NCBI RefSeq assembly: GCF_000317145.1
Contig: NC_019697.1
Span: 3,692,385 to 3,756,384 of the forward strand
Source of the DNA: Chamaesiphon minutus PCC 6605
Lineage (GTDB): Bacteria; Cyanobacteriota; Cyanobacteriia; Cyanobacteriales; Chamaesiphonaceae
DNA: 64,000 bases
Reading direction: 5' to 3'
Position 1 is the first letter of the stretch. Each line of letters starts with the position of its first letter. Positions 16,673-20,066 of the stretch are shown piece after piece. Both the position numbers and the translations under genes were made by a program. The notes under the pieces were generated by a model that was not told where the DNA came from, ran no database searches, and saw only the letters and a program-made list of their open reading frames with translations.

Positions 16673-16840
16673 CAACCCGCCCCTACAGACCCATATCAAC
16701 TCATAATCGATCGAGATTACAACAATACCTTTCCAATCCTAGCCATTTTGCTAGGTGAAATTCCCCCCATCATTCTAGTACTGTCAGACTCGATCTCGCG
16801 GCACAATGAAAACATTCAAGCCAGACGCAGAGCAAAGAAC

Positions 16841-17740
16841 ATGTCTTCATTACTGGAATTATCTAATAGTTTAGCCGATACCGTCGCCGCAGCCGGAACG
16901 GCGATTGTCGCGATCGAGACCGGACGGCGATTTTCTCCTAGCGGCATCCACTGGCGCAAAGGCATAGTGGTTACTTCCGATGAATCTCTCAAAAGCCATG
17001 ACGATTTAATGCTCGTCAGTGCTAGCGGCAAAGCCACACCGATCGTCCTTCTGGGTCGCGATCCCTCTACAGATATTGCCGTATTTACACTTGCAGACGC
17101 CGATAGCCTGCCTGTAGCCACCGTCGGCGATACAGCTAACTTAAAAGTCGGTCATCTAGTCCTGGGGTTAGCTAGAAGCCCCGAAGGCGATATCCGCGCT
17201 TCACTGGGCACGGTGAGCGTGCTGGGCGACTCTTGGCAGAGTATGAGCGGCGGGACGATCGATCGCTATATCCGCCCCGATTTAACCCTCTACAGGGGAT
17301 TTGCGGGGGGTGCATTAGTCGATGCAGGCGGACGGATCGTGGGCATGAATACCACTGGGAAACGCGGTACCGCATTGACAATTCCAGCCGAAACGATCGA
17401 TCGAGTCGTCTCCCAACTAGTCGCCAAAGGACGCATCGCGCGAGGCTATCTAGGCGTGGGAATGCAGCCAGTCCGCCTATCCCCACAACTAACTAGCTCG
17501 CTCAATTTAAACATGCCAACTGGGGTCATCCTCATCAACGTCGAACCCCACAGCCCAGCCGAGAAAGGTGGTTTACTATTAGGCGATATCTTAATCCGTT
17601 GGGAGGGCACACCCATAGCCGATCCCAGCGATGTCCGCGCCTTCCTGAATCGCGGCGATCGCGTCGGACAACAAGTAAACATCAGCATCATCCGAGGCGG
17701 TACGCTAGTCGAACTATCGATCGAGATTGGCGAACGGTAG
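16841..17740 (+). CDS. HtrA-like trypsin-fold PDZ protein lacking catalytic His and Ser
   Basis: A 299-residue protein with a trypsin-like beta-barrel half and a C-terminal PDZ domain (~200-295; YLGVGMQPV, AEKGGLLLGDILI). Aligned to HtrA/Deg proteases, the acidic residue survives (GRDPSTDIAVFTL). The His-bearing NNHVV position reads SDESL, and the GNSGGPL nucleophile loop reads GFAGGAL, so both His and Ser are gone. It should be a non-proteolytic, peptide-binding paralogue. There is no signal peptide. ATG 16841 (MSSLLELSNSLADTV) was chosen because the upstream open frame is repeat DNA. It is followed by an intact protease and a regulator on the same strand, so a functional unit is likely. Confidence 0.85.
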   Translation: MSSLLELSNSLADTVAAAGTAIVAIETGRRFSPSGIHWRKGIVVTSDESLKSHDDLMLVSASGKATPIVLLGRDPSTDIAVFTLADADSLPVATVGDTANLKVGHLVLGLARSPEGDIRASLGTVSVLGDSWQSMSGGTIDRYIRPDLTLYRGFAGGALVDAGGRIVGMNTTGKRGTALTIPAETIDRVVSQLVAKGRIARGYLGVGMQPVRLSPQLTSSLNLNMPTGVILINVEPHSPAEKGGLLLGDILIRWEGTPIADPSDVRAFLNRGDRVGQQVNISIIRGGTLVELSIEIGER

Positions 17741-17910
17741 ATGAGGGAACGGGGGGACGAGGGGACGGGGAGACGCGTCCCGCCCCTCAACGGGGGGTCT
17801 GGGGGTCGGCACCCCCAGATCCGGGTTCTGTCCCCACCAGAAAACCCCACTAGTACAGGTATCGCTCGTTGACCAAAATACTAAGCACAATTAGTCACAT
17901 TCCAGAATTA

Positions 17911-18474
17911 ATGGCTATTACTGAAGTAGACACCCAACTAGCCGCACTGGCACACCAACTACGATCGATTACCGTCAAAATCCGCATCGGTAACCTCAGC
18001 ATCGGCACAGGCACCATTTGGCGATCGGACGGTTTAATCATCACCAACGCCCATGTCGCAACTAGAGCCAGATCGATCGTCGAACTACCCGACGGACGAT
18101 CGTTTCCTGCTATTCGCACCCACTTCGACCCCCAACAAGATCTCGCCGCACTGCAAATCGATACAACTAATCTCACAGCAGCCGAAATCGCCGACATCGA
18201 GAGATTGCGCGTCGGCGAACTAGTAGTAGCCGTTGGCAACCCCCTAAGCGATCGCGGTGCAGTCACCACCGGGACGCTGTACGCCAGCCAACCAGGAGCG
18301 ATCGTGGCCGATATCCAACTTTATCCCGGCAATTCTGGTGGCCCTTTAGCCGACTGTTTGGGAAGAGTTATCGGGATTAATACAATGATTGTCGATGGTT
18401 TGGCGATCGCGATCCCGATTACCAAAGTAGCAGCAATGCTCGATCTCGATCGTCACTCACGCGGAGTAGCCTGA
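17911..18474 (+). CDS. Trypsin-like serine protease (S1C family, no PDZ)
   Basis: A compact protease domain of 187 residues (201 if the upstream TTG at 17869 is used) with the complete HtrA-type triad: His in ITNAHVATRA, Asp in QQDLAALQI and Ser in PGNSGGPLAD. It lacks a PDZ domain and any signal peptide, which is short for an HtrA; substrate recognition may be supplied by the PDZ-bearing pseudoprotease encoded just upstream. The stop codon overlaps the start of the next gene by one base (TGATG), indicating translational coupling. The TTG/ATG start choice is uncertain; no clear ribosome-binding site separates them. Confidence 0.85.
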   Translation: MAITEVDTQLAALAHQLRSITVKIRIGNLSIGTGTIWRSDGLIITNAHVATRARSIVELPDGRSFPAIRTHFDPQQDLAALQIDTTNLTAAEIADIERLRVGELVVAVGNPLSDRGAVTTGTLYASQPGAIVADIQLYPGNSGGPLADCLGRVIGINTMIVDGLAIAIPITKVAAMLDLDRHSRGVA

Positions 18475-19103
18475 TGATTCGGGTATTGGTTGTAGCTACT
18501 GCGGCGGTGTCTCGTGCCGGATTGTCTGGCGCACTGTCGCTCGATCCTACACTCAAAGTTGTTGGCACAGCGGCAGATCTCGATACTTTGGGGGAGGAAG
18601 TCGATCGATGGCAACCCGACATCATCTTGCTCGATCTGGGCGACTCACCTCAAACATCCGTCTGGGATGAGTTAAATCGTCTGCAAGCGGCGCGATCGCC
18701 CGAACATATCCCGATCGCGCTTTACGATTGGGAGGGAGATTTTCAGGCAGCGATACAGGCTGGCGTGCGGGGAATCTTGCCCGATACAAGTACCGAATTA
18801 GAACTCGGTGCCGCGATTGCCGCGATTGCCAGAGGGTGGCTGGTGCTGCCGCCTAGCGCGATCGAGTTATTCGAGCTGCGAGAAAAAGTCACCACCGAAC
18901 CCGTAGCAATTTTGACACCCCGTGAGATTGAGGTCTTAGTTCAGATTGGGTTGGGGTTGGGAAATAAAGCGATCGCTCAAAATTTACATATTTCCGACCA
19001 TACGGTGAAATTTCACATTTCATCTATTTTTCAGAAGTTAAATGTTTCTACCCGTACCGAAGCTGTGACTGCGGGAATCCGGATGGGTTTAGTTTTGCTA
19101 TAA
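18474..19103 (+). CDS. NarL/FixJ-type regulator with degenerate receiver
   Basis: A 209-residue DNA-binding regulator. The C-terminal LuxR-type helix-turn-helix is intact (LTPREIEVLVQIGLGLGNKA...SDHTVKFHISSIFQKL, ~143-200). The N-terminal receiver keeps the Asp of ILLDLGD. It lacks the acidic pair after strand 1 (VVATAAVS instead of VDDH) and the conserved Lys (GILPDTS instead of the usual LLK), so normal phosphorylation control is doubtful. It overlaps the protease gene by one base and is most likely co-expressed with the pseudoprotease/protease pair. Target promoters are unknown. Confidence 0.85.
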   Translation: MIRVLVVATAAVSRAGLSGALSLDPTLKVVGTAADLDTLGEEVDRWQPDIILLDLGDSPQTSVWDELNRLQAARSPEHIPIALYDWEGDFQAAIQAGVRGILPDTSTELELGAAIAAIARGWLVLPPSAIELFELREKVTTEPVAILTPREIEVLVQIGLGLGNKAIAQNLHISDHTVKFHISSIFQKLNVSTRTEAVTAGIRMGLVLL

Positions 19104-19508: not shown

Positions 19509-20066
19509 ATGTATTCATTCGATCGAGATCGCTGGACACAAAAATCCCGTACCATCTTTCTGCGACAGCCGATCGATGACAAAGCTGCAAATGAGTCGAT
19601 CGCCCAATTGATTTGTTTAGATCTAGAAGATCCAGAGACACCGATTCAACTGTACATTAATACCGAATCGGTATCAGTACAGCCCCTAAAAACAAGCGTG
19701 GCAGCAGGATTGGCAATTTATGACACCATGCGAAGCTTGCGATCGGAAATACATACAATTTGTACCGGAACTGCCGACTCGATCGGTTCTTTGCTTCTAG
19801 CGATCGGTAGTCCCGGCAATCGCTTGGCACAGTCGCACGCGCGCATTCGCTTGGCGCAGGCTGACGAGGTGACATTAACCAAAGGTACGGCTCAAGAAAT
19901 CGAATCTGCTGCTAGATCGGTATTCAGACAAAGGCAAGTTTTGTATGAATTGTACGCCCAAGCCACGGGACAATCGATCGAAAGAATCGCCGCAGACACT
20001 GCCAAGCGGGAATACCTGTCTGCCACAGAAGCCCAAGCCTACGGACTGATCGATCGCATCCGCTAA
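19509..20066 (+). CDS. ClpP/ClpR-like protein lacking the catalytic His
   Basis: A 185-residue ClpP-fold protein. The handle and GQAxS region is recognisable (TICTGTADSIGSLLLAIGS), with the nucleophile Ser apparently kept and Asp in AADTAKRE. The catalytic-His strand of ClpP (MIHQP) reads RLAQA, so the His is Ala. Cyanobacteria encode ClpR, an inactive subunit assembling with ClpP3; this is probably ClpR-like or a further divergent paralogue. It is not next to a clpP gene here. It ends 4 bp inside the convergent tldD gene. ATG start at 19509. Confidence 0.8.
   Translation: MYSFDRDRWTQKSRTIFLRQPIDDKAANESIAQLICLDLEDPETPIQLYINTESVSVQPLKTSVAAGLAIYDTMRSLRSEIHTICTGTADSIGSLLLAIGSPGNRLAQSHARIRLAQADEVTLTKGTAQEIESAARSVFRQRQVLYELYAQATGQSIERIAADTAKREYLSATEAQAYGLIDRIR

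Follow-up and report, generated by a model that had tools for sequence, protein, structure and literature searches.

A conserved operon of HtrA-type proteins and a LuxR-type pseudo-receiver: a candidate self-regulating, cytoplasmic protein-damage sensor

What could an HtrA-like protein without a working active site be doing beside an intact protease of the same fold and a LuxR-type regulator whose receiver is itself degenerate? The question is raised by three consecutive same-strand genes, hereafter A, B and C, in a 64,000-nucleotide stretch of the Chamaesiphon minutus PCC 6605 genome (the window; Table 1). The initial annotation read them as a split, cytoplasmic Deg-like signalling system in which the dead PDZ protein A supplies peptide binding to a PDZ-less protease B, with a possible transcriptional output. 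Our gene models agree with it on the extents of all three genes, down to the one-base overlap of B and C (TGATG), which in 71 of 78 relatives is an overlap of 4 bp (ATGA). For the start of B, alignment to relatives favours the ATG at 17911 over an alternative TTG at 17869. The distance between A and B ranges from -14 to 540 bp among relatives; in the window this gap holds a G/C-rich imperfect inverted repeat (17741-17868), found in a single copy within the window. Just 3' of the module, at 19509-20066, inspection by eye picked out a ClpP-like gene in which the Ser motif GTADSIG is kept and the catalytic His position is Ala (RIRLAQAD), a substitution suggesting that it may encode another inactive protease, of the ClpR-like kind.

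Table 1. Features of the A-B-C module, in positions of the 64,000-nucleotide window
Feature	Position	Strand	Evidence
Gene A, HtrA-like pseudoprotease, 299 aa	16841..17740	+	Domain matches, alignments, AlphaFold model
PDZ domain of A, with YLG carboxylate-binding loop	17444..17728	+	PF13180, residues 202-296
Gene B, trypsin-like protease, His/Asp/Ser intact, PDZ-less here	17911..18474	+	Domain matches, alignments
Gene C, NarL/LuxR-type regulator with degenerate receiver, 209 aa	18474..19103	+	Domain matches, alignments, model
LuxR/GerE DNA-binding domain of C	18909..19070	+	PF00196, residues 146-199
C-terminal tail of C, GLVLL-COOH (Phi-x-Phi-COOH), candidate PDZ ligand	19086..19100	+	
Candidate operator upstream of A, two copies	16738..16780	+	Comparison of loci and matrix scan

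Protein A consists of a Trypsin_2 and a PDZ_2 domain, and its AlphaFold model (pLDDT 91.2) finds DegQ, AlgW, MucD and DegP as matches in the PDB. It thus has the trypsin-like domain and at least one PDZ that characterize the HtrA family (MEROPS S1C), and in the window it lacks the catalytic His/Asp/Ser of that family, reading E/D/A. Alignment to solved HtrA structures (DegP-like, AlgW) and to relatives puts Glu48 where the catalytic His would be and Ala155 where the Ser would be, with no alternative His or Ser to be found; A is dead at both positions, as had been proposed, and it keeps Asp78, which the initial annotation left unmentioned. The HDS triad is present at 41 of 125 loci, only one of them cyanobacterial: it is degenerate in 81 of 82 cyanobacterial loci and complete in 40 of the 43 others, the exceptions being two Gemmatimonadota and one Acidobacteriota. 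The carboxylate-loop motif [YFW][LI]G of the PDZ domain is found in all 125 relatives of A. A hydropathy scan of 82 A and 82 B proteins found no N-terminal hydrophobic segment above threshold, of the kind expected for export or anchoring; this absence of anything like a signal peptide supports a cytoplasmic, Deg-like signalling unit.

A contig scan with B as the query returned 80 loci from Nostocales, other cyanobacteria and records labelled Chloroflexota, Acidobacteriota and Gemmatimonadota, nearly all of which carry A, B and C together, on the same strand and in the same order; one locus comes from a MAG labelled 'Proteobacteria', whose genome belongs to the phylum sample that also contains the Chloroflexota one. 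The gene order, whose conservation across cyanobacteria had been put forward as a check, is thus conserved well past them. Among 386 cyanobacterial genomes, nine have A at 397 bits or more and the next HtrA scores 210 bits, and the A family is therefore both sharply separated and patchy. At a profile cut-off of 1e-75 the A family occurs in 72 of 251, 4 of 247 and 18 of 150 genomes from the phyla to which the Chloroflexota, Acidobacteriota and Gemmatimonadota members respectively belong, and a Paraburkholderia plasmid carries the A+C form. C adjoins A at 120 of 125 distinct A loci; four of the remainder stop at contig or locus ends, and the last, from a Nostoc MAG (L052), has A with a truncated B, truly lacks C and is possibly a decaying module. 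Generic HtrA genes, their neighbourhoods inspected likewise, had no adjoining B or C. Since the gene set recurs in several phyla, and since most of 45 control regulators (see below) are canonical, the association is not a matter of chance. Divergence is correlated between all members (A-C, r = 0.93; A-B, 0.90; B-C, 0.88), values that include their common phylogeny. Some Acidobacteriota and Chloroflexota have C on the upstream side of A (L216, 5283-6970 on the minus strand; L161), and the A-C link therefore outlasts changes in gene order. By these comparisons the invariant partner of A is C rather than B. No further conserved family was seen among the neighbours across phyla, including any conserved kinase or anti-sigma gene. 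At 11 cyanobacterial loci, among them L054 (788-1426, plus strand), a gene that by eye looks like one for an Hsp20 small heat-shock protein sits some 2.7 kb upstream in the same orientation.

In the window, B has the complete triad and lacks a PDZ, just as the initial annotation described it. It retains the HDS residues of the HtrA family, as do all 117 scorable relatives, without the protease-plus-PDZ architecture that most of these relatives have; the lack of a PDZ is real in the window and does not hold as a family trait, most related B proteins bearing one at the C-terminus. By parsimony, the presence of the PDZ in B changes 14 times on the A tree and 13 times on the B tree, both weakly supported, and the PDZ of A is never lost on either, the sole PDZ-less A sequence (L002) being a contig end. 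Because relatives mostly bear the domain, with repeated changes on the trees, the window B has lost its PDZ secondarily. This history is compatible with the suggestion that A supplies a PDZ to B; as the core idea, however, the suggestion has against it that most B proteins have their own, that A is catalytically intact at most non-cyanobacterial loci and that A+C occurs without B. Several Gemmatimonadota, Acidobacteriota and Chloroflexota genomes have no B beside A and C; in one cyanobacterium (G021; L003/L217) an internal deletion has left only 95 residues of B (L217, 5944-6228, minus strand), flanked by a dead A and an intact C, which amounts to a natural loss of B; and L176/L211 have A and C without a linked B, with A again dead. 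These last two cases rule out the idea that a dead A always goes with a B. Across loci no correlation was seen between loss of the triad in A and loss of the PDZ in B, and in Gemmatimonadota A is mostly intact and B mostly PDZ-less. B is an optional member of the module.

C joins a receiver to a GerE/LuxR helix-turn-helix and has a NarL/FixJ-type fold, without the complete phosphorylation pocket (acidic pair, Asp, Lys) of that family. The loss of the acidic pair and the Lys, already noted in the initial annotation, is evident in the window, where the D-D pair has become A8-T9 and the Lys Asp104; the phospho-acceptor Asp54 is kept. Neither the acidic pair nor the Lys is found in any of 108 scorable C proteins, in which Asp54 is mostly kept; of 45 controls, ordinary regulators of the LuxR type encoded in these genomes, 41 have the acidic pair and Asp and 42 the Lys. 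The pattern is the opposite of that of aspartate-less receivers, in which the phospho-Asp is replaced and the acidic triad-1 and Lys are largely kept (PMC4395418): C has mostly kept the Asp and lost the other two. Because Asp54 is retained in most cyanobacterial members, some phosphorylation-related role is conceivable.

The other end of C is conserved in a different manner. Phi-x-Phi-COOH terminates 101 of 102 complete C proteins, against 3 of 65 other LuxR proteins, counts that, like our other significance counts, treat related sequences as independent; the one exception (L040) is an interrupted gene. The consensus, G-L-[ILV]-x-L-COOH, is of the type seen in class II PDZ ligands, which makes the tail a candidate ligand. 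In the model of C it is a coil past the last helix (pLDDT of the last block, 72), and its role could alternatively be confined to helping the final helix of the DNA-binding domain pack or dimerise.

Upstream of A lies an element in two copies, CCTAGCCATTTTTCTAGG-N7-CTCCCCATTTTTCCGATG. In the window it lies 103 bp upstream of A and comprises a perfect dyad, CCTAGCCATTTTGCTAGG (16738-16755), a 7-bp spacer and a second copy, CCCCCCATCATTCTAGTA (16763-16780), and the CCATTTTTC core of copy two starts 24 bp after that of copy one. The exact dyad occurs once in the 64 kb, against 0.02 expected. When 47 cyanobacterial loci are aligned, the majority fraction averages 0.91 within the element and 0.42 over the preceding 60 bp, a contrast partly built in because the alignment is anchored on the dyad. 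Of the 386 cyanobacterial genomes, 8 contain the composite 37-mer, each a single time and at no site but the module promoter. All 8 belong to the nine that bear the module, of which the remaining one has a diverged copy, and none of the 386 has a second composite element. A matrix trained on cyanobacteria finds the element upstream of A in 14 of 20 Chloroflexota (p<=0.01), with weaker matches in 1 of 6 Acidobacteriota and on the Paraburkholderia plasmid and none in 15 Gemmatimonadota; among controls it matched 0 of 23 generic HtrA genes and 1 of 64 other LuxR genes.

The element is conserved together with the module in different phyla, which suggests that its binder is the cognate regulator C, and its occurrence once per genome points to autoregulation, so that C would bind it and control its own operon; the element could also be a site for another regulator. 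The transcriptional output envisaged at the outset is plausible on account of this conserved, operator-like sequence. A wider regulon was considered and rejected: single dyads in 12 module-bearing cyanobacterial genomes lie mostly inside coding frames, including a transporter-like frame and one of 1005 residues, or are poor matches, and in the window genome they show no excess over a reversed-pattern control. There was no Rfam match, which disposes of an RNA element, and no sigma-70 promoter could be identified by consensus. A defence-system reading was likewise dropped, the PADLOC matches being to generic trypsin and HTH domains alone.

From comparison come the conservation of the module, the states of the active sites, the pseudo-receiver, and the conservation of tail and element. 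On these we build, tentatively and at something short of an even chance, a self-regulating, phosphorylation-independent cytoplasmic HtrA circuit, for which we infer the binding of C to the element and of PDZ to the tail, cleavage, the direction of regulation and the stress signal. C, sitting on the two-copy element, would control the A-B-C operon itself. In the unstressed cell, the PDZ of A, and that of B where B has one, would hold the hydrophobic tail of C, which would be kept inactive or passed on to B, the active protease. Damaged proteins of the cytoplasm that expose hydrophobic C-termini would compete for the same PDZ site, and C, released or spared, would induce the operon until this load has been removed. 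The cyanobacterial A would act purely as a binding or allosteric pseudoprotease, with B as the catalytic member; in most relatives from other phyla A retains its triad, and B is sometimes absent. Rather more doubtful, though possible, is the broader claim that this is a new class, a one-operon cytoplasmic proteostasis circuit present in at least four phyla and on a Paraburkholderia plasmid. Its HtrA-type PDZ proteins would recognise the C-terminal end of a LuxR regulator that works independently of phosphorylation and acts on no operon but theirs, and repeated loss of catalysis (A) or of the PDZ (B) would produce variants.

The alternative that survives best, unlikely as we judge it, is regulated proteolysis, in which B, positioned by A, would cleave C or an inhibitor and so switch transcription, and A would activate B allosterically in the way that MamO activates MamE. 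The invariably intact triad of B, the translational coupling of B and C, the resemblance of the C tail to a PDZ/C-degron signal and the precedent of a pseudo-HtrA that activates its partner protease (PMC4794232) are all consistent with it, but several phyla have A+C systems that lack a linked B, and in two of these systems (L003/L217 and L176/L211) A is dead, so that cleavage by a cognate protease cannot be needed everywhere. More generally, the systems without B argue that neither cleavage of C by B nor the lending of a PDZ by A to B is universal. It is improbable that A and B are two ordinary stress proteases with a regulator of their own that senses an unrelated signal, such as a small molecule or a protein docking on the receiver: pseudo-receivers in other regulators do take non-phosphate inputs and Asp54 is retained in many C proteins, yet the tight A-C linkage across phyla, the cytoplasmic location and the conserved Phi-x-Phi tail beside PDZ partners all speak against it. 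Least probable is a split Deg protease in which A lends its PDZ to a PDZ-less B and C is merely co-transcribed, since the 13-14 parsimony steps of PDZ loss in B, with A retaining its own, on weakly supported trees, must be set against the PDZ of most B proteins, the failure of this loss to track loss of the A triad (Gemmatimonadota again) and the fact that A stays with C, not B, when one member is missing.

The domains are ordinary, and their arrangement, of the kind of protease-linked stress regulation, is apparently undescribed: we found no description of the A-B-C module in the open literature, a corpus that leaves out most subscription journals. That the module brings along a conserved control site of its own in the DNA suggests a sensor of protein damage that regulates itself. 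As HtrA proteins are known mainly for quality control in the envelope or in organelles, a cytoplasmic, regulator-coupled lineage across phyla would, if true, represent a new, kinase-free way of sensing protein damage. Its intact, half-dead and B-less versions form a natural series for testing what pseudoproteases do, and the module offers short testable parts in one DNA element and a five-residue tail.

PDZ and HtrA proteins are tied to transcriptional induction of proteases in DegS-RseA-sigmaE and CssRS-HtrA, envelope systems that use an anti-sigma factor or a histidine kinase; the parts of the present module, in contrast, all appear cytoplasmic, and no gene of either kind was seen among conserved neighbours. 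With NarL, VraR, LiaR and DesR, C shares the receiver and GerE/LuxR DNA-binding architecture and fold, but it differs from these response regulators in that all scorable members lack the acidic pair and Lys and in its conserved hydrophobic tail. HtrA, DegP, DegQ and AlgW have the protease and PDZ fold of A, and B has the same protease domain; unlike them, the module has no signal peptide-like segment, its A is dead in cyanobacteria, it is linked in an operon to a LuxR-type regulator and it scores far under the NCBIfam equivalog cut-offs. Like the module, MamE and MamO of magnetotactic bacteria pair an active HtrA with an HtrA pseudoprotease, and MamO activates MamE-dependent proteolysis (PMC4794232). 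These are, however, magnetosome biomineralisation factors, and the pair has been described without a regulator gene; no evidence of orthology emerged, MamO being a weak domain match at most. A protease with an activating pseudoprotease and no regulator, as in MamE/MamO (PMC4794232), is nevertheless the nearest precedent for the module.
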